Source: Bacteroidetes bacterium GWC2_46_850 (GTDB lineage: Bacteria; Bacteroidota; Bacteroidia; Bacteroidales; Dysgonomonadaceae). Taken from it: DNA of 64,000 bases. Made by a program: the position numbers and the translations under genes. This document shows, piece after piece, positions 40,260 through 60,407 of the stretch (its first letter is position 1; every line of letters begins with the position of its first letter). The notes below the pieces were generated by a model. The model was not told the DNA's origin, made no database searches, and saw only the letters and a list, made by a program, of their open reading frames with translations. The DNA is taken from assembly GCA_001768325.1 (NCBI GenBank), contig MENQ01000021.1:62001-126000 (forward strand). The letters are read 5' to 3'.

Positions 40260-40382
40260 TCTCTACAAAAAAATTATTTTGTTAAGCAATTTGAACTGAA
40301 GACAAGTTTGCCTGGACAATGTTATTCCGAGAATTCAACATGGAGGAATAAAGATGATCTGAATAGCCTAATAAATAAATTT

Positions 40383-41264
40383 ATGAACAAGTTAATGCAT
40401 GAACAACTCAATCTGAAAAATGGATCACCGGTTAAAATAAAATGGTGTGATTATGATTTTTTCAAGTACCCCATACACTACCACAGTGAGTATGAAATTA
40501 TTTACATTGTTAAGAGTACCGGCAAAAGATTTGTTGGCAATAATGTTGAACATTATTCCGATGGAGATCTGGTTTTACTGGGAAGCAATGTTCCGCATAT
40601 GTATAAAAGTGATCCTTTCTATTACCAAAATATCGGAAAACGACGCGTACAAGCGGTCATTCTTCATTTCTCGAATGATTTTTTCCGTCATGCCATAGAA
40701 CACTATCCAGAATTCTACCGCATTAAGACACTGTTGAATCAATCCCAACATGGAATCAGTTTTCCGGATAGTAAGGCTAGTCAGATGATCAAGAGCAGTC
40801 TTATAAAGGCATTGGATATGAAAAGTCTGGAATTAACGTTGGAATGCATCCGGATTCTTTCCATGATGGGTGAAACTGAAGCGAAAATATTTCTGAACGA
40901 AGATTATGTAGATCAAGCTCCCGTTAATCAACATGACGATCCCAGAATAATTAAAATATTATCACTACTGCATCAACATTATGTAGAAAACCTCTCATTA
41001 CAATATCTTGCAGAAAAGGCGGGCATGAATAAGGCGGCATTTTGTCGTTTCTTCAAAGAAAAAACAAGCAAATCCTGCTTTGGCTATATCAACGAAATGA
41101 GGATTAATTTTGCCTGCAAATTACTCCGGGAAGGAGGGTTGTCCATTACTCAAATATGTTACGAAACGGGATACAACAATATTTCCAATTTTAACAGACA
41201 ATTCAAGAAAATCACAAAGTTTACTCCCTCAGAATATCTGAGGGAGTTTAAAAAGATAAAATAA
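40383..41264 (+). CDS. AraC family regulator with cupin sensor domain
   Basis: A 293-residue transcription factor. The N-terminal cupin (about 15-110) shows YPIHYHSEYEIIYIV, GDLVLLGSNVPHMY and HFSNDFF, the layout of sugar-sensing AraC proteins. The C-terminal 100 residues are the double HTH (LSLQYLAEKAGMNKAAFCRFF and LSITQICYETGYNNISNFNR). It is divergent from the DUF6807-led operon and very likely controls it. The frame is open further upstream, but I place the start at the ATG at 40383; ATG 40395 is also possible. It ends 12 bp before the convergent LarA-like gene. Confidence 0.9.
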   Translation: MNKLMHEQLNLKNGSPVKIKWCDYDFFKYPIHYHSEYEIIYIVKSTGKRFVGNNVEHYSDGDLVLLGSNVPHMYKSDPFYYQNIGKRRVQAVILHFSNDFFRHAIEHYPEFYRIKTLLNQSQHGISFPDSKASQMIKSSLIKALDMKSLELTLECIRILSMMGETEAKIFLNEDYVDQAPVNQHDDPRIIKILSLLHQHYVENLSLQYLAEKAGMNKAAFCRFFKEKTSKSCFGYINEMRINFACKLLREGGLSITQICYETGYNNISNFNRQFKKITKFTPSEYLREFKKIK

Positions 41265-41276
41265 GCCACAGGATGA

Positions 41277-42560
41277 TTATTCAAATCGATCCCTGTACGC
41301 CCATAATCCCAGTGCCGGGCTGGAGATGTAGTAAATCTCTTCACCATCCGGAAGCGTATTGAATCCCTCTTTGAGGTGGGAAACATCGTATCGTTGCAGT
41401 GCTTCATCGATATCCCCCCATTGAAAACCGACACTTTCAATCTCTTCCTGCGTGAGGTTTTCTATTCCTTTTCCCGGATAATAGGTGATTGAAAATCTCC
41501 CTTCCGACGATCCGTGGATCAGGTGTGCTGCTGCGCCCAGGTTATCCCGCAGCTCCGGGTCTGCCGATACAGCATTCAGGGTATGGGGTGTGCCAAAATA
41601 GCCGTACTTACGGATCAACCGGTCAATGGTTTTATCCTCTCCAAACTCTTTCAGGGCAGGAGCCAGCACAATCAACTCACCGCCATCTGCAATAGCCATG
41701 CGGGTGCGGTAAACCGACTTGTTACCCAGCCAGGTACTCTTGAACTCAGTTGGATCCAGCCAGACGACAACCTTTTTCAGGGGTCGCTCTACCATCACAA
41801 AATTGACCTCCAGTGACAACTTTGCAGCACGGTCGAATACGTCGAAATCATCCCCCACAAACAGTCCGTACGTCTGTTGTTGTCCCTTTTCGTTCACGCC
41901 TACGACTGTGAGTACATAAACAATGGGCAAATCTTTCAGATACTTCTCTGTCGCATAGTTGAATACCCGTCGTACCGGTGTATCGGCACGACCCATCATC
42001 CGCTCCATGCCGTAAACGGCACCGATATAATGACTCTTATTGATTCCTTCGCTTCCGCCGGTACCCACCAGAATATTCTTGTTGTAGTTCGCCATGCCCA
42101 CTACCTCGTGGGGCACCACCTGACCAATGGAGAGAATCAGGTCGAAACCACCCTCGACCAGCAGCCTGTTAACTTGTGCCGGCCAGGCAAAGTCCACTTT
42201 CCCTTCCGATACCTCCCGGATGTATTCCGCCGGCACTTCACCCAGTGTAGCCACGTCGTTGCGCCAGTCGTGATCGCGAATGAGGGATTTTGGCGTTTTC
42301 CCGAACATGTGATCAATCTGATGCACCGTCATGGGGGTATGTGTACCCAGGGCCGGAAGGATATCGGTCAATTTTTCGCCGTAATACTCCCAGGTCATTT
42401 CGGTGAGCTCACCCGCTCTGCTGGGCAGCCGGGTATAATCGGGCGGAACGGCCAGAATCTTCTGCCGTTCCCCCAATCTATTCAATGCTTCGTACAGTCC
42501 CTGCTTCAAATCCGCTTTCGACAAGTTGGTCTGAGCGGAACCATTTTCGTAATAAATCAT
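41277..42560 (-). CDS. LarA-family nickel-dependent racemase/epimerase homologue (possible sugar-acid 2-epimerase)
   Basis: A 427-residue cytoplasmic protein of the lactate-racemase (LarA, formerly DUF2088) superfamily. Key positions are recognisable: VPPDYTR (38-44), GTHTPM with His74, IGQVVPHE with His151, then Lys161 and His177 (NKSHYIG), matching the histidines and the lysine that hold the nickel-pincer cofactor in LarA. Besides lactate racemases the family includes 2-epimerases of other 2-hydroxy acids, including gluconate. Being last in a hexuronate operon behind gnd, it is best explained as a D-mannonate/D-gluconate 2-epimerase; this is inference. The cofactor genes larB, larC and larE are not in the window. 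Confidence 0.82.
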   Translation of the reverse strand: MIYYENGSAQTNLSKADLKQGLYEALNRLGERQKILAVPPDYTRLPSRAGELTEMTWEYYGEKLTDILPALGTHTPMTVHQIDHMFGKTPKSLIRDHDWRNDVATLGEVPAEYIREVSEGKVDFAWPAQVNRLLVEGGFDLILSIGQVVPHEVVGMANYNKNILVGTGGSEGINKSHYIGAVYGMERMMGRADTPVRRVFNYATEKYLKDLPIVYVLTVVGVNEKGQQQTYGLFVGDDFDVFDRAAKLSLEVNFVMVERPLKKVVVWLDPTEFKSTWLGNKSVYRTRMAIADGGELIVLAPALKEFGEDKTIDRLIRKYGYFGTPHTLNAVSADPELRDNLGAAAHLIHGSSEGRFSITYYPGKGIENLTQEEIESVGFQWGDIDEALQRYDVSHLKEGFNTLPDGEEIYYISSPALGLWAYRDRFE

Positions 42561-42587
42561 CTTATTTTTGATTTAACATGTGGGATG

Positions 42588-42617
42588 TAAATCATCGAAT
42601 CTTAAATCATCGAATCA
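42588..42617 (+). repeat. Two 15-bp tandem repeats (TAAATCATCGAATC-type) between gnd and the LarA-like gene
   Basis: TAAATCATCGAATCT is followed directly by TAAATCATCGAATCA. The core ATCATC(A/G)AATC also appears, in the opposite orientation, in the 15-bp repeats at 45355. Confidence 0.7.
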
Positions 42618-42644
42618 ATACATCGCCACATCAATCCATCAAAA

Positions 42645-44099
42645 TTAAACATCATAGGTGGTGGAAGCCGTACTTCCGCCACGTCCTGTCCAGTCGGTAT
42701 GGAAGAACTTGCCACGCGGGCTGTCGAGTCGTTCATACTGATGGGCGCCAAAATAGTCGCGCTGTGCCTGCAGCAGGTTAGCCGGAAGACGTTCGCTGCG
42801 GAAACCGTCGTAATACCCCAATGCCGCTGTGATAGCCGGTACGGGAATACCATTCAACAGTGCCGTGGCACATACCCTGCGCCAGCTCTCTTCCGCCGAC
42901 TCTACCGCATTCTTGAAGAAGGGATCGAGCAGCAGGTTTTCCAATGCCGGATTGTTGTCGAATGCTTTCTTGATGTCTCCCAGGAAACGGGAACGAATGA
43001 TACAACCGCCACGCCACATCAATGCGATCCCACCATAATTGAGGTTCCAATCATACTCTTTGGCTGCCTCCATCATCAGGTCGTAACCCTGTGCGTAGGA
43101 GATAATCTTGGCTCCGTAGATGGCGTTTTCCAGGTCATCGATAAATTGCTGCTTGTCGCCTTTAAAATCCGGTTTTTTACCCACCAGTGTTTTAGATGCC
43201 TTCACCCGCAGATCTTTCTGTGCAGAGAGACAACGGGAGAAGACCGATTCACCGATCAGCGTGAGGGGAATACCCAGGTCGAGGGCTGTGACGGCAGTCC
43301 ATTTACCGGTACCTTTTTGTCCGGCGGTATCGAGTATTTTTTCTACCAATGGAGATCCGTCTTCATCTTTGAAGGCCAGAATGTCGGTGGTAATCTCGAT
43401 CAAATAGGAATCCAGGACCCCTTTGTTCCATTTTTTAAATACTTCGTGCTGCTCGAAAGCATCCATACCAAGCAGATCTTTCATCAGATGATAGGCTTCG
43501 TTGATGATCTGCATATCGCCATATTCAATGCCGTTGTGCACCATTTTCACAAAGTGGCCGGCGCCATTCTCTCCTACCCAGTCGCAGCAGGGAACACCAC
43601 CGTCAACCTTGGCAGCCACAGCCTGAAAGATCTCTTTCACATGCGGCCATGCTTCGGGTGATCCACCAGGCATCATGGAGGGGCCATTCAATGCACCCTC
43701 TTCACCGCCGGAGACACCCGTTCCAACATAAAGCAAGCCTTTGCTTTCCACATATTTTGTTCTGCGGATGCTGTCGGGAAAGTGACTATTACCACCATCA
43801 ATGATGATGTCGCCCGGTTCAAGCAGGGGGATGAGCAATTCGATAAAATCGTCTACCGGTTTACCGGCTTTGACCAGCATCATCACCTTGCGGGGTCGTT
43901 GGATGGATGCCACAAACTCTTCGAGTGAATGGGCTCCGATAAAATTCTTTCCTTTTCCTCTCCCTGCCAGAAAGTGGTCCACTTTGGCAACTGTTCTGTT
44001 GAAAACAGCCACGGTATATCCCTTACTTTCCATATTCAGGACCAGATTCTCACCCATCACGGCCAATCCGATCAATCCAATATCTGCTTTTTCTTTCAT
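42645..44099 (-). CDS. gnd: 6-phosphogluconate dehydrogenase, decarboxylating
   Basis: A 484-residue cytoplasmic enzyme converting 6-phosphogluconate and NADP+ to ribulose 5-phosphate, CO2 and NADPH. Evidence: Rossmann loop IGLIGLAVMGENL (8-20), NRT at the NADP site, GGNSHF, the substrate loop GVSGGEEGALNGPSMMPGG and the catalytic GHFVKMVHNGIEYGD. Length and C-terminal arm are those of the long Gnd type. It is not accompanied by zwf or pgl, its normal partners in the oxidative pentose phosphate pathway, but by hexuronate genes. Its leader contains a perfect Fur/PerR-like palindrome (44158-44174). Confidence 0.96.
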   Translation of the reverse strand: MKEKADIGLIGLAVMGENLVLNMESKGYTVAVFNRTVAKVDHFLAGRGKGKNFIGAHSLEEFVASIQRPRKVMMLVKAGKPVDDFIELLIPLLEPGDIIIDGGNSHFPDSIRRTKYVESKGLLYVGTGVSGGEEGALNGPSMMPGGSPEAWPHVKEIFQAVAAKVDGGVPCCDWVGENGAGHFVKMVHNGIEYGDMQIINEAYHLMKDLLGMDAFEQHEVFKKWNKGVLDSYLIEITTDILAFKDEDGSPLVEKILDTAGQKGTGKWTAVTALDLGIPLTLIGESVFSRCLSAQKDLRVKASKTLVGKKPDFKGDKQQFIDDLENAIYGAKIISYAQGYDLMMEAAKEYDWNLNYGGIALMWRGGCIIRSRFLGDIKKAFDNNPALENLLLDPFFKNAVESAEESWRRVCATALLNGIPVPAITAALGYYDGFRSERLPANLLQAQRDYFGAHQYERLDSPRGKFFHTDWTGRGGSTASTTYDV

Positions 44100-44157
44100 A
44101 CGATTAATCCATTTTTTTTCATTATGGTGTATGGAACTCGCAATAATAATGTATCAT

Positions 44158-44174
44158 ATGATAATGATTATCAT
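44158..44174. promoter_or_regulatory. Perfect Fur/PerR-type 7-1-7 palindrome upstream of gnd
   Basis: TGATAATgATTATCA, extended by one more complementary base on each side, equals the consensus described for Fur and PerR of other phyla. It lies about 60 bp before the gnd start. It could place NADPH formation under iron or peroxide control, or could be chance in AT-rich DNA. Confidence 0.5.
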
Positions 44175-44268
44175 GCTCGTTTCATTTATTTATATTTATT
44201 TATTTTCAAGACACAAGAATCAAGGACCAAGATCACATTGACTTTGTCCACATTGGTTCATTCAATAA

Positions 44269-45348
44269 TCATCTTTTTACGCGTGCGTTTCCTTTCCAGA
44301 TGCTCCAGATCACCTCCTCATCTGCTGGTTGTGCATAGTCTGTCAGGAACGTGGTGGCCAATGCACCGCTGGCCCAGGCAAACTGAATCCACTTTTCGGA
44401 AGACATTTCCCTGAGGATGCTGTAAAGCAGTCCTCCCACAAAGCCATCACCTCCGCCAATGCGGTCCATCACATTGATGGTGCGCAACGGAGCTTCATGC
44501 CAGTTTTCATTTTCATAAACAATGGCTCCCCAGAGATGTTCATTGGCACTGATCACTTCACGCAGTGTGTTCGCAAAGACCGATACATTTGGGAAAGCCT
44601 GTTTTGCATTCAGGATCATCCCCTTGAAGGCATGCATGGTATCTCCGATATTTTCTCCTCCCGCTTTGGGGCCTTCAATACCGAGGCACAACTGAAAATC
44701 TTCTTCATTTCCAATGAGGATATCAGCAAGAGAGGCTATTTCCGTGAAGGCCTCGTGAAGTTCCTTCTCCCTTCCCTTCCAGAAAGTGGCTCTGTGGTTG
44801 AGATCAAAGGAAATCAACGTTCCATGTTTCTTTGCATAACGGGCAATCTCGAGACAGAAGTTGCTTGTGTCGGGCGAAAGTGCTGCGATCAATCCGGAGA
44901 GATGTACAATCTGCACACCCTCTTTCCCAAATATCCTTTCCAGATCGAAATCCTTCACATTCAATGTCCTGCCCACCTCACCGGCACGGTCGTTCTGTAC
45001 ACGCGGGCCCCGCAGTCCGAAGCCACTGTCGGCAATGTTAAACTGATGACGATATCCCCAGGGATCTCCCTGTGGTACTTCGGGACCTTCGAAGTCCATG
45101 TTACGCGCACGCAGATCGGCTTTAATGAAAGCAGCGATGGGGCTGTCTTTCACAAAGGTTGTCAGCACCTTTACCGGTAGCCCCAGGTAAGAGGAGATGC
45201 TGGCCACATTGGTTTCAGCACTGGTAGCCTGCATCTGAAACAGATTGGTACTCTGCACCGGCTGAGCATTTACCGGCGTGATGCGTACCCCCATGCTGGT
45301 GGGTACGACCAGCGCATATTTAAAATCTTTTCTTAATTCGAGAGACAT
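44269..45348 (-). CDS. kdgK: PfkB-family sugar-acid kinase (2-dehydro-3-deoxygluconate kinase-like)
   Basis: A 359-residue cytoplasmic ribokinase-fold enzyme. The catalytic Asp lies in IGGGDGFVGGLLYSI, the anion-hole motif of PfkB kinases, with IGNEEDF and SFDLNHRATFWK as substrate and lid segments. These fit KdgK proteins of Bacteroidota hexuronate loci, which phosphorylate KDG, but specificity for gluconate or another sugar acid cannot be excluded. The frame continues upstream through a 15-bp tandem repeat that would add repeated INNHQ units; I place the start at ATG 45348 (MSLELRKDFKYAL), after the repeat. Confidence 0.8.
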   Translation of the reverse strand: MSLELRKDFKYALVVPTSMGVRITPVNAQPVQSTNLFQMQATSAETNVASISSYLGLPVKVLTTFVKDSPIAAFIKADLRARNMDFEGPEVPQGDPWGYRHQFNIADSGFGLRGPRVQNDRAGEVGRTLNVKDFDLERIFGKEGVQIVHLSGLIAALSPDTSNFCLEIARYAKKHGTLISFDLNHRATFWKGREKELHEAFTEIASLADILIGNEEDFQLCLGIEGPKAGGENIGDTMHAFKGMILNAKQAFPNVSVFANTLREVISANEHLWGAIVYENENWHEAPLRTINVMDRIGGGDGFVGGLLYSILREMSSEKWIQFAWASGALATTFLTDYAQPADEEVIWSIWKGNARVKR

Positions 45349-45354
45349 ATGAAT

Positions 45355-45414
45355 GATTTGATGATTATTGATTTGATGATTATTGATTTGATGATTATTG
45401 ATTTGATGATTATT
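45355..45414 (-). repeat. Four perfect 15-bp tandem repeats just upstream of the kinase start
   Basis: On the plus strand GATTTGATGATTATT occurs four times without interruption. The unit length is a multiple of 3 and the frame stays open through it (repeated INNHQ). The repeat number could vary by slippage and change the spacing between the SDR and kinase genes. Confidence 0.85.
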
Positions 45415-45452
45415 GATGTAATAATTGACAGCTGACACCTGATTCCTGATTC

Positions 45453-46265
45453 CTAAATACTGAATGCATCAAAACCGCCGTCAACGATTGCCACTGTGCC
45501 GGTCACAAATTTGGAAGCATCGCTCACCAGATAGTGCAACGTACCCAGAAGATCTTCCGGATCACCGAAGCGACGGAAGGGTGTGTGGGCGATGATGGTA
45601 TGTCCGCGATCAGAATAGGAACCATCGGGGTTGGTGAGCAACGCCCTGTTTTGCTCGGTAATAAAGAATCCGGGACACAAAGCATTCACCCGAAAGTTTT
45701 CGCCAAACTTGATAGCCAACTCACCGGCCATATATTTGGTAAAATTGGTGACAGCAGCTTTGGCTGCACCGTAACCGGCTACCCGTGTGAGCGGACGAAG
45801 AGCAGAAGCTGAAGAGATATTCACGATATTTCCCTTCTTTGCTTTTACCATATATTCGGCAAAAACAACTGTGGGCATGACGGTGCCCATGAGGTTGAGG
45901 TCGACCACCTTACGAAAGTCATCCATCTTCAGGTCAAAAATATTGTTGTTTGGCCCGATTGTTGCTCCAGGCATATTTCCACCTGCGCCATTGATCAACA
46001 CATCAATGGTACCATATTTTTCCGCAATTTCCCGGGCATTTTGTTTCAATACAGCCTCATCCGTGACATCCGTTTGCAGGAATATGGCTTCTCCTCCTTC
46101 ATCCTTCACTTTTCTGATCAACTGATTCCCTTTTTCCAGATTGCGGGCCATAACAGCCACATGCGCCCCATGAGCCGCCAGGTATTCGACCATCGACGTA
46201 CCCAGCACGCCGGTTCCTCCTGTGATGGCGATCACTTTTCCCCTGATATCAAAAAAATCGTACAT
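45453..46265 (-). CDS. uxuB: SDR-family D-mannonate oxidoreductase (fructuronate reductase)
   Basis: A 270-residue short-chain dehydrogenase. The cofactor loop is ITGGTGVLGTSM (14-25); NGAGGNMPGATI, NISSASAL and YGAAKAAVTNF (catalytic Tyr-x-x-x-Lys) follow in order. The NGAGGN signature and the length resemble the SDR-type D-mannonate oxidoreductase of Bacillus (YjmF/UxuB) rather than the long enterobacterial form. It should reduce D-fructuronate to D-mannonate with NADH. It has its own -7 box in the 129-bp gap after uxaE. The exact substrate is inferred from context, so the symbol is tentative. Confidence 0.83.
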   Translation of the reverse strand: MYDFFDIRGKVIAITGGTGVLGTSMVEYLAAHGAHVAVMARNLEKGNQLIRKVKDEGGEAIFLQTDVTDEAVLKQNAREIAEKYGTIDVLINGAGGNMPGATIGPNNNIFDLKMDDFRKVVDLNLMGTVMPTVVFAEYMVKAKKGNIVNISSASALRPLTRVAGYGAAKAAVTNFTKYMAGELAIKFGENFRVNALCPGFFITEQNRALLTNPDGSYSDRGHTIIAHTPFRRFGDPEDLLGTLHYLVSDASKFVTGTVAIVDGGFDAFSI

Positions 46266-46292
46266 AATATATTATTTAGTGTTTGATGTGGA

Positions 46293-46300
46293 CAAATATA
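46293..46300 (-). promoter_or_regulatory. Candidate internal -7 box (TATATTTG) for the SDR gene
   Basis: Exact TAnnTTTG match 27 bp upstream of the SDR start, allowing expression of the downstream half of the operon independently of uxaC-uxaE. Confidence 0.45.
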
Positions 46301-46394
46301 AGTCGATTATCCGATTGACCGGGATTAAATCACGTGAAAATCATTTCATAAAACGAGAAACCGTCACCGATACCTGTCTACACCGCCCCTGTTA

Positions 46395-47642
46395 TTAAAT
46401 CGAAAAAAGTCTTCTTAAATGTCTGTCGTAAATATTCTCTTCTACACAGGATCCAATGACATCGTCATATTTCACAAGCAGGTCCGTATATTCTCCTCCC
46501 ATTTCAGCAGCCACTTTATAGGCTACGTGAATCAACTGGCGGAAATTGGAATTATAATCGGCATGTCCCGGAATATGACGGAGTGTATTCGCATATTTAT
46601 CGCTTGTCCAGCCATTTACCTCCTCCACTGAAGGCAGCTGTGCAGCATCAATATTAATTACATCGGCGTAGGGAGCGCACAGTTCTTCCTGCCGGTTGTA
46701 AGAGTTCTCATAAATTTTCTTTGCCAGATCCAATCCTTCTCCACCGGCAACAGCAAGCCCTATCACCTCTTCGAGCCAGGTTGTACCAGCCGTTTTCAGA
46801 TGCAGTCCCTTATCATATTTGGCGATCACCTCCGCCATGATCGGGTAAATGGAAAACTTGTCGCTCCCTGAGTGTACACTCAACTTCAGTTCTTCGGGTA
46901 GTCCAAATTCTTTCACGGCAAAGTCAAGCACCAGCACATCCTCTTCGAACTCTTTGGCAAACTGAACCAGATCACCTACATAATCCACTCCCTTATTGAA
47001 TCGTCCGGTAAACTTGGGTGCAATGGTTTGAGCCGGAACACCTTTATCCGCCAGCATTTTCAATATGAAAAGCATTTCAACCGGAGTCTGGGGAGATTCT
47101 ACCTCATCCATAGATACCTCGGTGATAAAATTTCCTTCACCCTTCTCTTTTCTCAGATAGGCATAAATCTCAGATGCATGCTGTGTGGCTGCCAGAAATT
47201 TACCGGCAATCTCAGTCAACAGCGCCTTGGTGATATGCAACGGTTTTTCGATTCCCGGGATATGTAGTTCTCCCATATATTTTTCACAGGAAGCAACAAA
47301 AGCATCTACGTCCTCTTTGCTGCTTTCCTTACCAATAAAAGAAGCCACGTCGAGCGTGAAAAAATCGGATACTTCTACATATTTCGACACCGTAGTCAGA
47401 TTAATGTGGTCGGCATCCACAAAATAGGATCCATTAAAATGCAGCGCTTTAACAGCTTCATCTGCCTCTTTGCGTGTATCACCGGGTTCTGTCCCCACAT
47501 AAATATGCTCCCTGTTCGACTTATTCCATACCGGACTTATATTCAATCCGGTCTCATTGGCTTTCATGATGGCTCTCAGCTGAGCCTTTCCCTGGTGTGT
47601 AAAACGATCACCCACACCAATACTGTATTTACCTAATTTCAT
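46395..47642 (-). CDS. uxaE: Tagaturonate 3-epimerase
   Basis: A 415-residue cytoplasmic enzyme of the UxaE family, which converts D-tagaturonate directly to D-fructuronate and so joins galacturonate to the glucuronate branch. I recognise the N-terminus KLGKYSIGVGDRFTHQGKAQ, the metal-site regions KLSVHSGSDKFSIYPIMAE and LRHIPGHADYNSNFRQLIH, and the C-terminal YDRHLRRLF. The enzyme replaces UxaB and UxaA, which are absent here. It begins 11 bp after uxaC, with which it is surely co-transcribed. Confidence 0.9.
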   Translation of the reverse strand: MKLGKYSIGVGDRFTHQGKAQLRAIMKANETGLNISPVWNKSNREHIYVGTEPGDTRKEADEAVKALHFNGSYFVDADHINLTTVSKYVEVSDFFTLDVASFIGKESSKEDVDAFVASCEKYMGELHIPGIEKPLHITKALLTEIAGKFLAATQHASEIYAYLRKEKGEGNFITEVSMDEVESPQTPVEMLFILKMLADKGVPAQTIAPKFTGRFNKGVDYVGDLVQFAKEFEEDVLVLDFAVKEFGLPEELKLSVHSGSDKFSIYPIMAEVIAKYDKGLHLKTAGTTWLEEVIGLAVAGGEGLDLAKKIYENSYNRQEELCAPYADVINIDAAQLPSVEEVNGWTSDKYANTLRHIPGHADYNSNFRQLIHVAYKVAAEMGGEYTDLLVKYDDVIGSCVEENIYDRHLRRLFSI

Positions 47643-47653
47643 TATATTTATTT

Positions 47654-49060
47654 TTAAAAATTGAAAAAGTTCTTCGCGTTATTATAAGAGATGTCTTCTA
47701 CCATCTTTCCGATAAAATTCTTTTCGGATACCGGAAGCAGTCCATTTTCCAGGTCATTCCCAATGAGATTGCACAAGATACGACGAAAATACTCATGTCT
47801 CGGATAGGAGACAAAGCTACGCGAATCGGTAAGCATTCCCACAAACCGGCTCAGAAGTCCCAGATTAGAGAGTGAGTTCATCTGGGCTTCCATCCCTGTT
47901 TTTTGATCCAGAAACCACCAACCCGATCCAAACTGGATTTTTCCTGCTACGGATCCATCCTGGAAGTTACCAATCATGGTTGCGATCATATCATTGTCCC
48001 TGGGATTGAGATTATAAATAATGGTTCTGGCCAGCTTGTTGTCTTTATCCAGTTGGTCGAGAAAACGGCTCATCGCTTTCGCGACACTAAAATCACCGAT
48101 GGAGTCAAATCCTGTATCCGGCCCCAGTTGATTAAACAATCGGGTATTGTTGTTACGGATGGCGCCGTAATGAAACTGCTGTGTCCACCCCTTTTCCCAA
48201 TCCATCAAGGCACCTTCGTGCAACATGGCCGATTTAAATTTCAATATCTCCTCTCTTGTCAGCTCATTACCGCCATATACTTTATTAAATATCTGTGCTA
48301 TTTCTGCATCTGTATAGGAGTCGGCGTAAAATTCCTCAATCCCGTGATCGGAGAGTTTACATCCCACTTGCGCAAAAAAATCGTGACGATTGCGGAGTGC
48401 TTCCAGCAGATCACTGAATTTATTGATTGTGATACCGGATACTTCCGATAATTTTTCCAGGTAGCCACGGTATTCCTTCGGATTTTCTACTGCCATGGCT
48501 TTATCGGGTCTCCATGTGGGCAGTACCTTCACATCGAAACCTTCTTCTTTTAATGAAAGATGGTGTTCCAGACTATCGGCAGGATCATCTGTGGTACAGA
48601 CTACCTGAACATTAAATTTTTTCATTAACCCCCGGGCAGAGTAAGCCGGTGTGCGAAGCTTCTCTGTACAGAGATCGTATATTTCTCTTGCACTATCCGG
48701 ATTCAGTATTTTTTCCACACCAAAAGCCGATTTCAGCTCCAGGTGTGTCCAATGATACAACGGGTTTCGCATGGTATAGGGTACGGTTTCTGCCCATTTT
48801 TCAAATTTCTCCCAATCGGAGGTGTTTCTTCCGGTGCAGTACTTTTCTTCGATCCCATTGGTACGCATAGCACGCCATTTGTAGTGATCACCTTCAAGCC
48901 ACAACTGGCCCAGATTATCAAATGTATGATCTTCCGCAATGTAGGCAGGATTCAAATGACAATGATAGTCGATAATGGGTTGATTTTTTGCATGTGCATG
49001 ATACAACTCTTTTGCTGCCTCTGTCTGGAGCAAAAAGTCTTCATGAATAAAACTTTTCAT
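47654..49060 (-). CDS. uxaC: Glucuronate/galacturonate isomerase
   Basis: A 468-residue cytoplasmic amidohydrolase-fold isomerase converting D-galacturonate to D-tagaturonate (and D-glucuronate to D-fructuronate). Signature segments are DYHCHLNPAYIAED (metal-binding His-x-His near residue 34), KWRAMRTNGI, VVCTTDDPADSLEHH, LPTWRPDKAM and SYPRHEYFRRILC. Length is typical (about 470). It is the first gene of the hexuronate operon, with a -7 box right behind the HTCS stop, and its position beside the pectin locus means it receives the galacturonate released by the GH28 and GH105 enzymes. Confidence 0.96.
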   Translation of the reverse strand: MKSFIHEDFLLQTEAAKELYHAHAKNQPIIDYHCHLNPAYIAEDHTFDNLGQLWLEGDHYKWRAMRTNGIEEKYCTGRNTSDWEKFEKWAETVPYTMRNPLYHWTHLELKSAFGVEKILNPDSAREIYDLCTEKLRTPAYSARGLMKKFNVQVVCTTDDPADSLEHHLSLKEEGFDVKVLPTWRPDKAMAVENPKEYRGYLEKLSEVSGITINKFSDLLEALRNRHDFFAQVGCKLSDHGIEEFYADSYTDAEIAQIFNKVYGGNELTREEILKFKSAMLHEGALMDWEKGWTQQFHYGAIRNNNTRLFNQLGPDTGFDSIGDFSVAKAMSRFLDQLDKDNKLARTIIYNLNPRDNDMIATMIGNFQDGSVAGKIQFGSGWWFLDQKTGMEAQMNSLSNLGLLSRFVGMLTDSRSFVSYPRHEYFRRILCNLIGNDLENGLLPVSEKNFIGKMVEDISYNNAKNFFNF

Positions 49061-49154: not shown

Positions 49155-52100
49155 TTATTTTACATATATCTTTTTGTATTCACTGGGTGTCATATTGAAT
49201 TTCTTCTTGAAACAGCGGGTGAAATATTTGGCGTCGTTCATCCCCACCATGTACGATACCTCTTTGATTGCATGCTCGCCATTCACCAGAAATTCCGCTG
49301 CATGCTGCATCAACACGTCACGCACATATTCGATGGGAGCAAGCCCGGTGAGCCCTTTCAATTTTTTAAAAAAAACAGTGCGGCTCATCCCCATTTCTAC
49401 AGCCATATCTTCAATAACAAAATCGCTGTTGCCGAGATGCGATTCAATAAATTCATTTACAGCACGGATAAAGACGAGGTCTTTTTCATTGAAAGGAGCA
49501 TCTGTTGTTTCTTTTGCCCGCGACAAAGCAACGGGAGAAGAATTTGTTTTGTTCCTGTAATAACGTTGTAATTCGCTCCTGCGCTGCAACAGATTTTTGA
49601 CACGCGCCTTGAAATAGGAGACGCTGAAAGGTTTGGTAATGTACTCATCTGCCCCCTGCCCAAAACCCTCCAATTTACTGTCGAGCGTTGTTTTCGCTGT
49701 AAGCAGCAAAAAGAGAATATGACTCGTATGGATATTGCTCCGAACCCTTTCGAGCAACTCAATCCCATCTACTTCGGGCATCATGATGTCGCTGACAATA
49801 AAATCCGGAATAAGTTCCAGTGCCTTTTCAAGTCCCTCCTTTCCGTTCGATGCTTCGTACACCTCGTACTCATTCTCGAGAATGGACAGGATAAACTGTC
49901 GTAGATCCTCATCATCCTCAACGACCAATACGGAGGGTTGACCATTGACCTCTTCTGTGGCAAGGAGAGGAAGCGGCTCATCCTCTATCTCTCTTTGGGG
50001 CTCGCTCACAGCCAATGGACTGAGCGAGTCATCGATGGTCACGTCTGTGCCGAAGTGCGAATTTCCTTTCCGGAAGTACACCGTAAAGCTGCTACCCTTT
50101 TTTTCTTCACTATCTACCTCTATCCTGGCACGATGCTTGTCGGCCATCTCCTTCACAATGGAGAGTCCGATGCCGGTGCTGGGTTTACTGGCATCTTCAT
50201 TAAAAGATTCAAAACGCCGAAACAGTCTGCCCATTCTTTCTTTGTTGATGCCAACACCAGTATCCTTCACCTGTAGAGCCACCTCATCGTTGTGGTGGAA
50301 CACCGAGACATGAATTGATTTTCCTTCGGGCGTATATTTGAAGGCATTGGAAAGAAGATTCACCACAATTTTTTCCATCGCTTCGGCATCAACCCATATC
50401 AGTTGATCACCCACCCTGTTTTCAAAGAAATAGTCGATATTTCTAAGCTTTGCATTATTCATGTAGTTCTCATACAGATTTTCCACAAAAGGTCCCATGG
50501 CAATCTTACTTACTGTCAGTGGGGATTGTTCCATCTTTTGAAAATCGAGAATCTGATTCACCATATTCAACAGACGCCTTGTATTCTTGGAAACAAGCAA
50601 AAGCTGTTTCTTCACCGTTTCAGGTGTCGATGTATTCTGTATCAGGTTCTCAATGGGTGAAACGATCATTGTGAGCGGTGTACGGATCTCATGAGAGATG
50701 TTGGTGAAGAAACGGGTTTTGATCTCCGACTCCTGCTTTTCCAATACAATCTTGTTACGCATTTTGTAGAAAGCATACAATATCCGGAAGATAAAATAGA
50801 GGATCAATATCGCCAACAAGGCATAGAAGAGATATGCCCAGCCGGTGGCCCAGAAAGGGGGGAGCACCTCTATGGCAAGCGTTCGCTCGTTGTCTGTCCA
50901 CACACCATCGCTGTTGGTCGATTTTACCCGGAAAAGATATTTACCCCGCGACAGGTTGGTGTAATTGGCGATACGCTGATTGCCTGCATAAATCCATTCC
51001 TTATCGAAACCATCCAACTTGTATGCGTAATAAATATTCTCCGGATCTGTATAATCGAGAGCCGCAAACTCGATGCTAAAAAAATTCTGATTGTGCTTTA
51101 GTTGCAGGTGTTCAATCAAGTCGATACTTTTATACAAAGGTCCTCCGTCGGAGATATGCACGATACGGTTGAATAAACGAAACTGTACCAGTGCGAGGTA
51201 GGGGTTAAAAGTATTATTCTTCACACGCTCAGGGTCAAAAACAAACATTCCATGCGAATAGCCGAATAGCATTCTCCCATCACGTAAACGGCAACTCGAG
51301 TTTTCGGAGAAATTGTACCTCTTCATCATTCTCTTTATTTCACTAAAATTTTCAAAAGTCTCCGCTTGCCGATTAAATTTGGTGAGACCACCTTCACTAC
51401 CTATCCAAAGATCCCCCCTCTTGTCTTCTTCAATGGAGAGAATAATATTGGAAGGTATACCCTGTTCAGCGCTGTAAGTTTCAAATCTTATTGGAAAACC
51501 ACGTTGGTCTGTTTCCTTTATCATGCTAATACCTCCGCCGAATGTTCCAATATATGTTTCACCTGATTGTGTGGTACAGATATCGATGATATCGTTGGCA
51601 CCAATCGCGTATTCTTTGGCAGTGCTACTTGTGAAAATTTTAAATTCTATTTCCTGGGGTGATTTGAAATCAGCGTCAAACATCATAAATCCAAGGGTGG
51701 TACCAACACAGATATGCCCATGTTTGTCACTTGTGATAATTCTTACCTGATCGACCTGGTTAAACGGATAATCTGTCATATCATTGAGATGATTCACAAT
51801 TCTATCTGCATCATCCCCATGGATAATCAGATTTAATCCGCCCCCGAAAGTGCCAATCCATATGTTCTTATTTTTATCCTCAAAAATTGTATATACATTG
51901 TTATCACTCAACGAATATTTGTCGTGTGAGTCATTCTTGTAACGGGATATATGAAAACCTCTTCCACTCACTTTCCTTACAAGCTTAATTGCCCCTTCAC
52001 CTTTCGTTCCTATCCAGATGTTTCTCTCTGAGTCTTCAGTAATACAATATGCAATTCCTTCCAGGGGAGCGCCACTTCCTATCTCTCCACGGTTATTGAG

Positions 52101-53558
52101 GATGCCTTGTTCCTTCATTTCCTCATTATATATATGAATAATCCCGTCTTTTGTCGCTACCCATATAAATCCCTCAGAATCCTCAAAAATTGGACGAACA
52201 TCATTACTGATTGTTGAGTTCACGTTGCGATGAAGTGGAATAGATTTAAATTTGGCATCATCATAAAAGATCACCTTCTCCAATCCATTGGAGCGTGTGC
52301 ACATCCATAAATTGCCCTGCCTGTCGGAATAGGCGGAATGCATCATATTGGAAAAGAGCCAACGTTGAGAGAAAGGCTCATTATAAAACGGTGTAAGCTG
52401 ATCTTTTTCTCTATCATAGATCGAAAAGCCTCCCCCTCTGGGGTGTACCCATAGTCGGTCGTCACTGTCTTCAAAAATAAAAAAGTTGGGTGGGAATACA
52501 CTCGACACTGTACTTTCTATAAAGGGTGTAAAGTGAACGTAATGGCCAGAATAAGGATTAAACTTTGAGACACCCAACAGATCGGTCTCCAACCATATAT
52601 TCTTTGAACGATCCACGTAACCATCCATAATTTGATAGAATTTCATATCGGGATTTGTTACTGAATTATTTATCTCCATGCTGCCATCATGCGTATTATA
52701 TATGATAAATCCGCTCAAACTGGAGAGTACAAGTATCTTTTCCGAGGAAATCTCACAAATTGAGATGATATCTGAAGAAATTCCCGTGGAGAGCTGAGTA
52801 AAGGTCTTCCCTTTCAGGTCGTACTTCCAGATAAGACCTCTGTGAGAGCCAAACCAGATGGTATCTCCGAACTCCATGGCACTGAAGAAGGGTGTCTCTT
52901 CTTTAAATCTACCAGAGGATAACGGATGAAAAAAAAATGAAGGAGAGGCTCCATCTGCAGGGGCCAATGTTAATCCCCTGTTAGTCAGTATCCAGGAATT
53001 TTGAAATTTGTCTTCGTGAATAGCAAACACGCAGTCGTCCGTTAAATTATGATTACGCGTATGATACACATTTGCATTGAAGAGAGAGTCAGTAATAGAA
53101 ATACACCCGTGTTTCTCCGATAAAAGCCATACTGTGCCGCTCTCCATCGGAACAATCTGTGACGCCAAAAAAGAATTCCCTCTGCATGCCTCAATGGAAT
53201 TCGGGCTTAAAAATGATGCCGTTTCTATATTAAACCGATAGGCTTGGTTGTCATATGTTAATGCCCAAATATTGTTGTATTTGTCCTCGTAGAGATTGTC
53301 AATACGGCTGCTTCTCGATTCAACTGTGTTGTCAGAGGGCAGATGATAAGTCGTGAATGCATACCCGTCAAATTTACTCAACCCGTCCCAGGTGCTAAAC
53401 CACATAAAACCTTTTTCATCCTGCAGAATATCAGTGATTGTATGCTGCGGAAGACCATTTTCTGCACCATAATGTTTAAAATAGGCTTCAGGTTGTCCCC
53501 TCAACTGCAGGATGAAACAGAGTTGGACAAAAATGAATATGTAAAATCTTATTTTCAC
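49155..53558 (-). CDS. Hybrid two-component sensor/AraC regulator (HTCS) of the pectin locus
   Basis: A one-piece sensor-regulator of 1467 residues. A signal peptide (FYIFIFVQLCFILQLRG) leads into some 14 propeller repeats (pattern GFIWVATKDG / NIWIGTFGGGLN), a Y_Y_Y domain and one transmembrane helix (about 900-925, WAYLFYALLAILILYFIF). Inside the cell follow HisKA with phosphorylated His956 (FFTNISHEIRTPLT), the ATPase domain (VVNLLSNAFKYTPEGK, GIGLSIVKEM), a receiver with Asp near 1257 (VSDIMMPEVDG) and an AraC HTH (MGMSRTVFFKKLKGLTG). The periplasmic part senses a pectin oligosaccharide. I place the start at GTG 53558 because an upstream ATG (53654) lies before the predicted promoter. It divides the uptake genes from the hexuronate operon and probably controls both. 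Confidence 0.94.
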   Translation of the reverse strand: MKIRFYIFIFVQLCFILQLRGQPEAYFKHYGAENGLPQHTITDILQDEKGFMWFSTWDGLSKFDGYAFTTYHLPSDNTVESRSSRIDNLYEDKYNNIWALTYDNQAYRFNIETASFLSPNSIEACRGNSFLASQIVPMESGTVWLLSEKHGCISITDSLFNANVYHTRNHNLTDDCVFAIHEDKFQNSWILTNRGLTLAPADGASPSFFFHPLSSGRFKEETPFFSAMEFGDTIWFGSHRGLIWKYDLKGKTFTQLSTGISSDIISICEISSEKILVLSSLSGFIIYNTHDGSMEINNSVTNPDMKFYQIMDGYVDRSKNIWLETDLLGVSKFNPYSGHYVHFTPFIESTVSSVFPPNFFIFEDSDDRLWVHPRGGGFSIYDREKDQLTPFYNEPFSQRWLFSNMMHSAYSDRQGNLWMCTRSNGLEKVIFYDDAKFKSIPLHRNVNSTISNDVRPIFEDSEGFIWVATKDGIIHIYNEEMKEQGILNNRGEIGSGAPLEGIAYCITEDSERNIWIGTKGEGAIKLVRKVSGRGFHISRYKNDSHDKYSLSDNNVYTIFEDKNKNIWIGTFGGGLNLIIHGDDADRIVNHLNDMTDYPFNQVDQVRIITSDKHGHICVGTTLGFMMFDADFKSPQEIEFKIFTSSTAKEYAIGANDIIDICTTQSGETYIGTFGGGISMIKETDQRGFPIRFETYSAEQGIPSNIILSIEEDKRGDLWIGSEGGLTKFNRQAETFENFSEIKRMMKRYNFSENSSCRLRDGRMLFGYSHGMFVFDPERVKNNTFNPYLALVQFRLFNRIVHISDGGPLYKSIDLIEHLQLKHNQNFFSIEFAALDYTDPENIYYAYKLDGFDKEWIYAGNQRIANYTNLSRGKYLFRVKSTNSDGVWTDNERTLAIEVLPPFWATGWAYLFYALLAILILYFIFRILYAFYKMRNKIVLEKQESEIKTRFFTNISHEIRTPLTMIVSPIENLIQNTSTPETVKKQLLLVSKNTRRLLNMVNQILDFQKMEQSPLTVSKIAMGPFVENLYENYMNNAKLRNIDYFFENRVGDQLIWVDAEAMEKIVVNLLSNAFKYTPEGKSIHVSVFHHNDEVALQVKDTGVGINKERMGRLFRRFESFNEDASKPSTGIGLSIVKEMADKHRARIEVDSEEKKGSSFTVYFRKGNSHFGTDVTIDDSLSPLAVSEPQREIEDEPLPLLATEEVNGQPSVLVVEDDEDLRQFILSILENEYEVYEASNGKEGLEKALELIPDFIVSDIMMPEVDGIELLERVRSNIHTSHILFLLLTAKTTLDSKLEGFGQGADEYITKPFSVSYFKARVKNLLQRRSELQRYYRNKTNSSPVALSRAKETTDAPFNEKDLVFIRAVNEFIESHLGNSDFVIEDMAVEMGMSRTVFFKKLKGLTGLAPIEYVRDVLMQHAAEFLVNGEHAIKEVSYMVGMNDAKYFTRCFKKKFNMTPSEYKKIYVK

Positions 53559-53594
53559 GCAATAGGTATTTCCAAGACTATCTTTTGGTTGAGA

Positions 53595-53602
53595 CAAATA
53601 TA
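53595..53602 (-). promoter_or_regulatory. Candidate -7 box (TATATTTG) for the HTCS gene
   Basis: Exact TAnnTTTG match; transcription would start near 53588, some 30 nt before the GTG at 53558. This makes an upstream ATG at 53654 unusable. Confidence 0.5.
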
Positions 53603-53677
53603 TATTTTTTTTTGCTTCTTTCCCAATTCTACTTAAAGTAAAACAATTCAGCACCCTTTAAAAACCAATTTATCCCC

Positions 53678-53763: not shown

Positions 53764-56700
53764 ATGAATAAAATGAATGAATTTAGCATGAAAAAGAAAG
53801 TATCCATAGGTATGCTACTTTTCCTTTTTTTTTCGTTGGGCTTAACTGCTCAGGAAAAAAATATCCGCGGATCAGTGAAAGACACCTACGGTGAACCGGT
53901 TATTGGTGCAAACGTCATGGTGAAGGGAACATCCATTGGCGCTGCCACCGATATCAATGGAAACTACACACTTTCCGCACCGGCATCAGCCACAACGCTC
54001 CAGATTTCTTATATTGGCATGAAAGAGACAGAAGTCGCTATTACAGGAAGTGTAGTCAATATTGTTATGGAAGAAGATGTGTCGAGCCTCGACGAAGTTG
54101 TCGTCGTGGGGTATGGCACACAGCGTCGAAGGGATCTCACAGGATCGGTATCATCCGTGAATGCGGAAACAATTGCTGCAGTGCCTGTTGCTTCAGCCGT
54201 GGAGGCCATCACCGGAAAAATGGCAGGGGTACAGGTTCTTACCACGGAAGGATCACCCGATGCAGAGATGCGGATTCGGGTTCGAGGCGGTGGTTCAATC
54301 ACACAGAGTAACGATCCCCTCTTTATAGTGGATGGTTTCCCTGTGAGTACCATCTCTGATATCCCCCCCACAGATATTGAATCGATCGACGTATTGAAAG
54401 ATGCTTCTTCTACTGCTATTTATGGATCACGTGGAGCCAATGGTGTTGTCATTGTAACCACCAAATCGGGAAAAGCAGGCAAACTACGCCTCAGTTATAA
54501 CGCCTATTTCGGCGTAAAAAAAATTGCCAAAACGCTGGATGTGCTTTCTCCATACGATTACGCAACCTGGCAGTATGAATTAGCAGCACTCCAGGGGAAC
54601 GATGCACTTAAAAACTACAGCTCTTTCTTTGGGAACTATCAGGATCTTGACCTCTATCGAGACATACCCCACAACGATTGGCAGGATCTCACCTTTGGCC
54701 GCACCGGTACTTCCATGAACCATAGTCTAAGTCTGAATGGAGGTAGTGACAAGATGACCTATGCTTTCAACTTCTCTCATCTTTCCGATAAAGCGATCAT
54801 GGAAGGTTCTGACTACAAAAGAAACAGCATGAGCCTGAAATTAAATAACAAGCCAAACGACAAGATCACACTCGATTTCTCGATTCGATATACCGACACA
54901 CAAATAAACGGCGGTGGAGCAAATGATGCCGGGAGCACACTCGACACGGATAAAAGGCTGAAGTATTCCGTAATTTATACACCCATTCCGTTAAAAAATC
55001 TGGATGCAACTGCGGGTAGTAATGACGATGATCTGGGAAATCTTTATAATCCGCTCGTCTCTATCACCGACAATGCACGAGAGAAAACACAGAAGAGACT
55101 CAATCTGGCAGGGAGTGCCTCCTGGGAGATAATAGACAACCTGCGCCTGCGATCTGAAGCAGGATTGGATCACCAAGATGATGGTGATCAGCGATATTGG
55201 GGATTAACCACCTATTACATAAAAAATTATCCCTCGGTAGATAATCAGGGGAAACCGGCAATCCGTTTGGTAAACAGAGAAAGACAGACATTGCGAAATA
55301 CAAATACATTGAGTTATGATTTTAAAAAAATCCTCAGCGAAGATCACAGCCTGAATTTGATGGCAGGACACGAGTACATCGTTCGGAAAGGCCTTACGCT
55401 CACAGATGAGGTTCATGGATTTCCCGCTACTTTCACTGCGGACGATGCATGGAGGCTCTCCTCACAAGGTGTACCCTACACCATCGACAACTATTACAAC
55501 GAAGATGACAAACTACTCTCCTATTTTGGTCGTGCCAATTACGACTTCCAGGGTAAATATCTGCTGAGTGCGACCTTCCGTGCCGATGCTTCCTCCAAAT
55601 TTAGCAAAGAGAACCGTTGGGGATACTTTCCCTCTGCTGCAGCTGCCTGGCGTATCTCGTCTGAACCATTTATGGAAAATACAAAAAGTTGGCTCGATGA
55701 TCTTAAATTACGTGCCAGTTTTGGAACAGCCGGAAACAACAATATTCCTTCGGGTCAGCTTGTACAGATGTTTGAGTCGAGGGCTACCTCTTGGATCAAC
55801 GGATTCACGAATTATTGGGCACCATCAAAAGTCATGGCCAACCCAAATCTAAAATGGGAGACTACAGTGACAAGAAACGTGGGTCTTGACTTCACGCTGT
55901 TGGGAGGCAGACTCAGTGGAACCGTGGAAGCCTATCGCAATACAACCAGCGATCTGCTGATCGAATTCCCGGTAGCCGGCACAGGATATGATACCCAATA
56001 TCGTAACATGGGAGAAAATCAAAATCAGGGAATCGAAACCACACTGAACTGGTATGCGGTAAATAACCGGAATTTCACCCTCAGTTTAAGCGGCAACATT
56101 GGTTTTAACCGGACAGAAATACAAAGTCTGGGAATCATGAATGATTTTGGATACGACACCTATTGGGCTTCCTCTGAAATTGGATACGACTACTGGATCG
56201 CTAAAGGTGGTGCGGTTGGACAAATGTTCGGATATCACTCCGACGGAAGATACGAAGTGTCTGATTTTGAAAGATATAATGCTTCTGCCAACCGATGGAT
56301 TCTCAAGGAAGGGGTAGCGGACGCTTCTGGCGTGGTCGGTAATATTCGTCCGGGTTCCATGAAGCTGAAAGACCTTGATGATAACGGTATAGTGAATGTG
56401 GATGACCGGGAGATTATCGGGGATGCCAACCCAGTACATACAGGTGGCTTTACTATCAATTCTACCTTTCATGGGTTCGACATTTCTGCCGCCTTCAACT
56501 GGAGTTATGGTAACGACATCTACAACGCCAACAAAATTGAATTCTCTCACACCGGAAAATATCAATATCGCAATATGATCACCACGATGGAGCCCGGCAA
56601 AAGATGGACCAACCTACGGGAAGACGGGACCATCAGCAACGATCCGCAAGAGCTGGCTGCCATGAATACAAAGACTACCATGTGGTCGCCACAAACCTCC

Positions 56701-56979
56701 CGCATGCTATTCAGCGACTGGGCAGTGGAAGATGGAAGTTTCCTTCGTCTAAATACCCTCACACTGGGCTATACCATTCCCAAAACAATGCTCGCTAAAA
56801 TGAAAATCGACCAGCTACGCTTTTATGTAACCGGTTACAATGTTTTCCTTTGGACTAACTACTCCGGATATGATCCGGAAGTATCGACTGTGAGAAGGAC
56901 CAACCTCTCACCGGGCGTAGATTACTCCGCCTACCCAAAAAGTCGTCAACTCGTATTTGGCGTAAATTTGAATTTTTAA
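53764..56979 (+). CDS. SusC/RagA family TonB-linked outer membrane transporter (pectin locus)
   Basis: A 1071-residue outer membrane transporter. The signal peptide probably begins at the third Met (MKKKVSIGMLLFLFF, 53788) and is cleaved near LTAQE; the carboxypeptidase-like domain (IRGSVKDTYGEPVIGANVMV), the plug (SLDEVVVVGYGTQRRRDLTG, FIVDGFPVS, VLKDASSTAIYGSRGANGVV) and a barrel ending RQLVFGVNLNF follow. It is the first gene of the pectin uptake transcript, divergent from the HTCS, and with the SusD 18 bp downstream imports galacturonide oligomers made at the surface. Confidence 0.95.
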   Translation: MNKMNEFSMKKKVSIGMLLFLFFSLGLTAQEKNIRGSVKDTYGEPVIGANVMVKGTSIGAATDINGNYTLSAPASATTLQISYIGMKETEVAITGSVVNIVMEEDVSSLDEVVVVGYGTQRRRDLTGSVSSVNAETIAAVPVASAVEAITGKMAGVQVLTTEGSPDAEMRIRVRGGGSITQSNDPLFIVDGFPVSTISDIPPTDIESIDVLKDASSTAIYGSRGANGVVIVTTKSGKAGKLRLSYNAYFGVKKIAKTLDVLSPYDYATWQYELAALQGNDALKNYSSFFGNYQDLDLYRDIPHNDWQDLTFGRTGTSMNHSLSLNGGSDKMTYAFNFSHLSDKAIMEGSDYKRNSMSLKLNNKPNDKITLDFSIRYTDTQINGGGANDAGSTLDTDKRLKYSVIYTPIPLKNLDATAGSNDDDLGNLYNPLVSITDNAREKTQKRLNLAGSASWEIIDNLRLRSEAGLDHQDDGDQRYWGLTTYYIKNYPSVDNQGKPAIRLVNRERQTLRNTNTLSYDFKKILSEDHSLNLMAGHEYIVRKGLTLTDEVHGFPATFTADDAWRLSSQGVPYTIDNYYNEDDKLLSYFGRANYDFQGKYLLSATFRADASSKFSKENRWGYFPSAAAAWRISSEPFMENTKSWLDDLKLRASFGTAGNNNIPSGQLVQMFESRATSWINGFTNYWAPSKVMANPNLKWETTVTRNVGLDFTLLGGRLSGTVEAYRNTTSDLLIEFPVAGTGYDTQYRNMGENQNQGIETTLNWYAVNNRNFTLSLSGNIGFNRTEIQSLGIMNDFGYDTYWASSEIGYDYWIAKGGAVGQMFGYHSDGRYEVSDFERYNASANRWILKEGVADASGVVGNIRPGSMKLKDLDDNGIVNVDDREIIGDANPVHTGGFTINSTFHGFDISAAFNWSYGNDIYNANKIEFSHTGKYQYRNMITTMEPGKRWTNLREDGTISNDPQELAAMNTKTTMWSPQTSRMLFSDWAVEDGSFLRLNTLTLGYTIPKTMLAKMKIDQLRFYVTGYNVFLWTNYSGYDPEVSTVRRTNLSPGVDYSAYPKSRQLVFGVNLNF

Positions 56980-56997
56980 TCCCAAAATAAGAACAGA

Positions 56998-58764: not shown

Positions 58765-58768
58765 TCAC

Positions 58769-60319: not shown

Positions 60320-60332
60320 TCCATCACGCCTT

Positions 60333-60375: not shown

Positions 60376-60407
60376 TGCGTCAAATAAAAAAGTAAAAACC
60401 ATAACTG

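Follow-up and report, generated by a model that had tools for sequence, protein, structure and literature searches.

The window considered here, a stretch of 64,000 nucleotides from Bacteroidetes bacterium GWC2_46_850 (assembly GCA_001768325.1, contig MENQ01000021.1, positions 62,001 to 126,000), carries on its minus strand a hexuronate operon of six genes, uxaC-uxaE-SDR-PfkB kinase-gnd-larA homologue (SDR, short-chain dehydrogenase/reductase), which spans 49060 to 41277 and probably leads D-mannonate by way of 6-phosphogluconate to ribulose 5-phosphate, in whichever order its epimerase and its kinase act. Galacturonate freed by an adjacent pectin polysaccharide utilization locus (PUL) would be isomerised by UxaC, epimerised by UxaE and reduced by the SDR to D-mannonate, which the LarA homologue, a member of LarA superfamily group 18 (LarAH18), and a dedicated PfkB kinase would convert to 6-phosphogluconate, most likely by epimerisation to D-gluconate followed by 6-phosphorylation, an order that we infer. 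Gnd would then yield ribulose 5-phosphate, NADPH and CO2, such that the carbon would enter the pentose phosphate pathway and the oxidation at this step would offset the reduction at fructuronate. The classical route via 2-keto-3-deoxygluconate (KDG) appears to be kept in this genome as well, with unsaturated uronates (kduI, SDR, kdgK, eda) and xylan glucuronate (uxuA) as its probable substrates. The route from mannonate to ribulose 5-phosphate is regarded as the best explanation because the LarA protein falls in the hexonate-epimerase branch, gnd and the kinase travel along with it, and the recognition residues of the kinase are switched. An earlier, sequence-only reading of this DNA had proposed such a route through gluconate, which these three lines favour, whereas the classical genes found elsewhere in the genome (uxuA, kduI, kdgK, eda) speak against it. 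All reactions named for LarAH18 and for the kinase are deduced from sequence and should be taken as putative.

The gene order and coordinates of that reading agree with gene content and family scans, the intergenic gaps being 11, 129, 104, 169 and 84 bp in gene order. The uronate isomerase UxaC (47654..49060; PF02614 681 bits; NF002794 equivalog 661 bits, cut-off 387), which turns galacturonate into tagaturonate and glucuronate into fructuronate, is followed by a tagaturonate 3-epimerase of the UxaE type (46395..47642; PF16257 184 bits, cut-off 27; no match in the NCBIfam scan), which forms fructuronate from tagaturonate, and by an SDR-type D-mannonate oxidoreductase of the UxuB type (45453..46265; NF006132 364 bits, cut-off 281), which converts fructuronate to mannonate. 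Next come the PfkB-family kinase of the LarA18-gnd branch (44269..45348; PF00294 72 bits, no NCBIfam model above its cut-off), a putative gluconate or mannonate kinase; the decarboxylating, NADP-type 6-phosphogluconate dehydrogenase Gnd (42645..44099; TIGR00873 749 bits, cut-off 427); and LarAH18 (41277..42560; NF052594 653 bits, cut-off 500), a putative D-mannonate/D-gluconate 2-epimerase. A perfect 15-bp tandem repeat between SDR and kinase (4.3 copies, 45354-45417) is open in frame and inflates the listed kinase open reading frame (ORF) to 389 amino acids; since the kinases of relatives align over 359 residues, we take the ATG at 45348 as the start, which gives 359 amino acids. UxaE, a mannonate-forming reductase, a LarA epimerase and gnd are found together, as in the pathway of the Thermotoga maritima type, and a GntK-type gluconokinase is absent from the operon. 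Neither uxuA nor kdgK nor eda, the genes of the classical Entner-Doudoroff hexuronate isomerase pathway, occurs in it (all are elsewhere in the genome), and zwf and pgl are not found beside gnd in the window; the sequence-only reading was right in placing uxuA and the aldolase outside the operon and gnd apart from zwf and pgl.

NCBIfam names group 18 'nickel-dependent putative hexonate epimerase' (NF052594). At E 0.01, a PDB search with the window's LarAH18 gives a single sequence match, 4nar, the structure of T. maritima GntE2, which is also the top Foldseek match of the AF2 model of LarAH18 (pLDDT 93.1; TM 0.78, 23% identity in the Foldseek alignment). Placed via the 4nar alignment and the residue list of PMC7583248, the residues in question are D41, R44, H74, H151, E152, V153, K161, H177 and K281, and all of the cofactor-binding (R75, K184, H200) and catalytic (D72, H108, H174, K298) residues of LarA, in Lactiplantibacillus plantarum numbering, have their counterparts. 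The same residues stand at these nine positions (cofactor, catalysis and loop) in 103/103 group-18 proteins, in which E152-V153 match the loop signature of groups 19 and 20. Groups 19 and 20, represented by GntE1 and GntE2, were shown to epimerise D-mannonate to D-gluconate, and a hexonate substrate is predicted for group 18, which shares their loop features (PMC7583248). Fold, nickel-pincer and catalytic residues and substrate-loop features are common to groups 19/20 and LarAH18, which we place in the hexonate-epimerase branch with a putative 2-epimerase activity. Further GntE assays are given in PMC11770544; in the text examined of that paper and of PMC7583248, no assay recognisable as one of group 18 was found.

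The reverse order, in which the PfkB protein would be a mannonate kinase and LarAH18 a 6-phosphomannonate 2-epimerase, is a sub-variant of the same explanation, with overlapping odds, and is regarded as possible though rather doubtful. It has a precedent in Lactobacillus suebicus, in whose extracts mannonate was phosphorylated first and then epimerised to 6-phosphogluconate, the epimerase and kinase genes not having been identified (PMC6978723). As here, mannonate from the isomerase pathway is joined to 6-phosphogluconate dehydrogenase in that organism; unlike here, the kinase acts first and a phosphoketolase stands downstream, and the kinases are thought to be GntK-like, not PfkB. GntE1 and GntE2, on the other hand, act on free D-mannonate (PMC7583248), and LarAH18 carries their loop signature.

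The operon kinase had been likened to a KDG kinase in the sequence-only reading; its best PDB sequence match is the T. maritima KDG kinase 2afb, and the nearest folds of its AF2 model (pLDDT 87.9) are 4gm6 and 2afb. The likeness does not hold in detail. A KdgK that adjoins eda elsewhere in the genome scores 332 bits with 2afb, compared with 107 for the operon kinase. The KDG kinases (2afb and Flavobacterium FlKin) and the operon kinase have in common the PfkB fold, two substrate arginines and the GGGD aspartate, whereas Gly34, Tyr89 and Tyr104 of the former are replaced by Ser43, Asn104 and Asn119 in the window kinase. Seven KDG-recognition residues are listed for FlKin (PMC5334617), and the five compared here are those that share numbering with the KdgK of this genome; across 76 operon kinases, G34, Y89 and Y104 have become S, N and N in 96-99%, with R106 and R169 kept. 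As three of the five compared residues are switched and a closer KdgK exists elsewhere, the protein is unlikely to be an ordinary KDG kinase, and its sequence fits a sugar-acid kinase that does not take KDG. In a FastTree tree of 108 PfkB proteins, the 76 operon kinases are grouped apart (support 0.81) from 21 proteins on the KdgK side and from 11 kinases of a second type, which retain Gly34, Tyr104 and both arginines, not Tyr89; a KdgK at least 50% identical to that of the window's genome occurs together with another PfkB-family kinase at 16/102 loci. A gluconokinase elsewhere in the genome, which the sequence-only reading had allowed for, was not found by an FGGY_N search, small E. coli-type GntK not having been searched; the FGGY kinases over cut-off are xylulokinase-like, a rhamnulokinase and a ribulokinase, and a ROK protein stays below cut-off.

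The organism is close to Proteiniphilum, its best named relative having a LarA 96% identical to that of the window, and the set of SDR, kinase, LarA18 and gnd recurs beside LarA proteins of 59-96% identity. The loci compared are 80 named ones (the best 80 of 577 matches, leaning to the kin of the window) and 30 regions (22 with LarAH18, 8 with a weaker LarA) from a sample of 392 genomes drawn evenly across the phylum. Neighbours were counted by tblastn if they lay on the same strand and no more than 6.5 kb away; ORFs that the ORF caller missed in L045, L075, L125, L128 and L147 were covered by tblastn or six-frame reading. The linkage of gnd and larA, suggested for checking in the sequence-only reading, recurs in these loci. 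Where a named locus is flanked by at least 5 kb on both sides, gnd, the SDR and a kinase sharing 70% identity or more with that of the window are each present, in 39/39 cases (an earlier ORF-based count over these loci had given 39, 38 and 37 for gnd, SDR and kinase), and the full set of 80 named loci, in which short contigs are common, shows gnd in 71, the SDR in 66 and the kinase in 74. The 22 phylum-sample loci have gnd in 20, the SDR in 20 (not found in L126 and L131), any PfkB-family kinase in 17 (not found in L125, L126, L137, L141 and L143) and a window-type kinase in 5. Transketolase is part of the cluster in L133, L139, L144, L154 and L149 (L154 scanned: TIGR00232 843 bits). Zwf is missing in 7/35 LarAH18 genomes, including one assembled into a single contig, and in these gluconate is probably the source of 6-phosphogluconate.

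Several side observations concern the same neighbourhoods. A homologue of pyrophosphate-type phosphofructokinase occupies the kinase slot between SDR and LarAH18 in L137 (7138-8418) and L143 (10616-11896; PRK14072 369 and 365 bits, cut-off 273), followed by a 296-residue protein lacking a Pfam match at 1e-8. A PdxB-type 4-phosphoerythronate dehydrogenase lies near or between LarAH18 and gnd in 50/110 fetched loci, often with a Gfo/Idh/MocA oxidoreductase (example L081:12949-14079; NF001309 475 bits, cut-off 434). In L082, a LarAH18 of 77% identity lies on a contig binned as Chromatiales, by gene transfer or mis-binning.

A number of findings weigh against the route to ribulose 5-phosphate. The window's genome (G000; 3.75 Mb in 32 contigs, with a listed completeness of 100%) has uxuA outside the operon, as the sequence-only reading had thought possible, in a glucuronoxylan-type cluster with a second SDR of the D-mannonate oxidoreductase type, a xylulokinase-like gene, a GH67 alpha-glucuronidase and, beside uxuA, a gene read as xylA that has no Pfam match at 1e-8. 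Likewise kduI, an SDR, kdgK, eda and an MFS transporter stand together elsewhere; this SDR (L006:6594-7385) matches 'gluconate 5-dehydrogenase' at 517 bits (cut-off 369) and falls below the cut-off for kduD, so that its name is unsure and it may be a second link to gluconate. The operon's gnd is the sole PF00393 match found in G000, and as the genome carries one zwf, away from the operon, gnd could have a part in the general oxidative pentose phosphate pathway as well. The comparison of kinase residues was numbered through the KdgK of G000 in place of FlKin and covered five of the seven listed residues. Among relatives, gnd lies about 8 kb off in L125 and is not found near LarAH18 in L142, no gene next to LarAH18 could be recognised as a kinase in L125, L126 and L141, and some have eda and kdu genes in one operon with the LarA-side kinase. 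In 10/80 named loci uxuA and LarAH18 share a strand and are at most 6.5 kb apart (L115: TIGR00695 562 bits), and mannonate therefore has two fates. Finally, the search of G000 gave no match for LarC, a best LarE match of 34.7 bits (cut-off 150) that is GMP synthase, and a best LarB match of 50.2 bits (cut-off 175) that is PurE; the sequence-only reading had counted such an absence against its own proposal, and in our reading it leaves the logic of the operon unbroken.

Taken together, these genes would allow the classical route, with the kinase as a KDG kinase, gnd as a housekeeping gene present by chance and LarAH18 unrelated to the flux. The PDB matches of the kinase, the presence of uxuA and eda in the genome and the eda and kdu genes in the operon of some relatives all favour it, yet we consider it improbable: the much closer KdgK adjoins eda elsewhere, the recognition residues are switched, the linkage of gnd, kinase and LarA18 holds across families, and six genomes lacking both zwf and larC keep LarA18, with gnd at all six loci (L132, L136, L137, L138, L144, L153).

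Maturation by LarB, LarC and LarE in the same genome, the known route to the LarA cofactor, lies outside the family definition of group 18, and its absence is not peculiar to G000. In the phylum sample, LarAH18 is over cut-off in 23 genomes and LarC in 26; LarC, LarE and LarB are over cut-off in the same 7/23 LarAH18 genomes, and none of the three in 16/23. Among 12 named LarAH18 genomes, in which LarC was not searched, 3 have LarB and LarE and 9 have neither; where the LarA match is weaker (143-199 bits; 18 genomes), 8 have LarC and 10 do not. LarAH18 is the only Lar_N protein in seven LarB- and LarE-containing genomes (G039, G078, G243, G259, G336, G360 and G403, LarC being untested in the last), which fits ordinary use of the nickel-pincer cofactor there. 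LarC is about 10 times commoner in LarAH18 genomes (7/23) than in those whose LarA matches, if any, do not exceed about 140 bits (11/351; Fisher p 2.6e-5, kinship not corrected). A quick tree of LarAH18 calls for no fewer than 6 changes of the larBCE label (4 or more by starred branches), although the label is more clustered than most shuffles; the counterparts of K184, H200 and R75 of LarA (cofactor-tethering lysine, nickel-ligand histidine, phosphate-binding arginine) are invariant in 25/25 proteins from larBCE-negative genomes, whose pairwise identity goes down to 61% and which have 148 of 427 columns invariant. It follows from these label changes and residues that larBCE come and go, whereas LarAH18 persists with its cofactor residues.

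Trivial causes were considered. Assembly gaps were weighed against three LarAH18 genomes lacking a LarC match on single contigs (G124, G188, G302) and the coincidence of LarB, LarC and LarE matches over cut-off in all 41 genomes searched for the three (15 with, 26 without). LarB or LarE might hide among weak matches; the best in G000 were the PurE and GMP synthase already mentioned, the other weak ones not being followed. A degenerate LarAH18 in larBCE-negative genomes was rejected, cofactor and catalytic residues being invariant, and the commonest neighbours (the PdxB-type dehydrogenase, the Gfo/Idh/MocA oxidoreductase and a LacI-type regulator) gave no hint of nickel or sulfur chemistry as part of an alternative cofactor pathway. 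That LarAH18 has given up the nickel-pincer cofactor in these genomes and works with another cofactor or none, in some other reaction, would agree with the 16/23 genomes that have no LarC match and neither LarE nor LarB over cut-off and is nevertheless improbable, given the residues invariant down to 61% identity and the enrichment of LarC in LarAH18 genomes. As no cofactor or catalytic residue varies and 16/23 sampled group-18 genomes show this absence too, the missing larBCE are more likely an unsolved cofactor question, a gap in knowledge, than a refutation of the enzyme. LarAH18 very probably still binds a nickel-pincer-type nucleotide, one not made by a recognisable LarB, LarC or LarE.

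In this context, the opposite mismatch, larBCE without larA, is given as about 15% of genomes (PMC11796402), and in the accessible text of the papers searched, including PMC7583248, PMC11770544, PMC11796402, PMC9283937 and PMC12393405, no report of LarA without LarBCE was found. Nine genomes of family f39 (G167, G207, G215, G246, G258, G270, G278, G371, G383) each carry a pair of LarA-type genes, with none of LarB, LarC and LarE exceeding its cut-off, so that the orphan-LarA pattern extends beyond group 18. LarC over cut-off occurs in eleven sampled genomes whose LarA matches to NF052594, if any, stay below about 140 bits (G066, G097, G119, G128, G141, G145, G172, G240, G329, G390 and G004, the last with a 22-bit match), hinting at other cofactor users or other LarA groups.

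One of the closest known systems is the UxaR-regulon operon of T. maritima, aldH-pelB-gnd-uxaRED-gntEK, most genes of which are 2- to 5-fold up on pectin (PMC3750489). It shares with the present operon uxaE, a reductase gene (uxaD there), a LarA-family gluconate 2-epimerase and gnd, and T. maritima, too, keeps kdgA-kdgK-uxuB-uxuA apart from its pectin-induced operon. The idea of a path from mannonate to pentose phosphates is in print for this organism (PMC3750489, citing Rodionova 2012a). It differs in having gntK in place of the PfkB kinase, a group-20 instead of a group-18 LarA, and uxaC in a different regulon, not inside the operon as here; T. maritima also has LarC (a match in our control search) and LarE (PMC9283937), whereas no larBCE were found in the window's genome. 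In Petrimonas, gndA is listed among highly transcribed genes (PMC7768429), and the pentose phosphate pathway of Gramella is reported to be incomplete (PMC5306329).

Directly upstream of uxaC lies the gene of a hybrid two-component regulator (49155..53654, minus strand; Reg_prop, Y_Y_Y, HisKA, HATPase_c, Response_reg, HTH_18), and divergent from it a PUL (53764..63292, plus strand), recognised by Pfam matches, with SusC-type (53764-56979; TIGR04056 886 bits) and SusD (56998-58764) proteins, a DUF4957/DUF5123 protein, a GH28 enzyme of the polygalacturonase type (60408-62084) and a GH88 (62102-63292). With this PUL beside the operon, polygalacturonate is the likely source of the galacturonate, and galacturonate the likely substrate. 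An AraC-type regulator (40308..41264, plus strand; HTH_18, AraC_binding) is convergent with the operon and adjoins LarA18 in only two fetched relatives (L037, L053). A second PUL-like block (25186-39953) holds two proteins of the 3-keto-disaccharide hydrolase family, a GFO_IDH_MocA protein (others being assigned by reading only), SusD and two DUF6807 proteins, which suggests 3-keto-glycoside chemistry. An Rfam search of 35000-54000 at gathering threshold gave nothing, and promoter-like sites (25 vs 18.4 expected) and terminator-like sites (10 vs 9.2 expected) were not used.

What is new here is the PfkB kinase, the spread in Bacteroidota and the larBCE anomaly, the route itself having been proposed in other bacteria. 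We see about an even chance that many LarAH18-bearing Bacteroidota have a second route to a nickel-pincer-type cofactor, by another biosynthesis or by uptake of the cofactor or a precursor made by neighbours, and that the operon kinase is at the same time a new PfkB-type gluconate or mannonate kinase. In the LarA literature examined, nickel-pincer nucleotide synthesis is described only via LarB, LarE and LarC, which makes the cofactor puzzle the more surprising part: in 16/23 sampled genomes the user of the cofactor looks intact, yet none of its known makers is found. If the proposed route holds, pectin-degrading Bacteroidota could drain galacturonate into pentose phosphates in a redox-balanced manner, a kind of galacturonate route that the authors of the L. 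suebicus study call highly interesting for engineering (PMC6978723).

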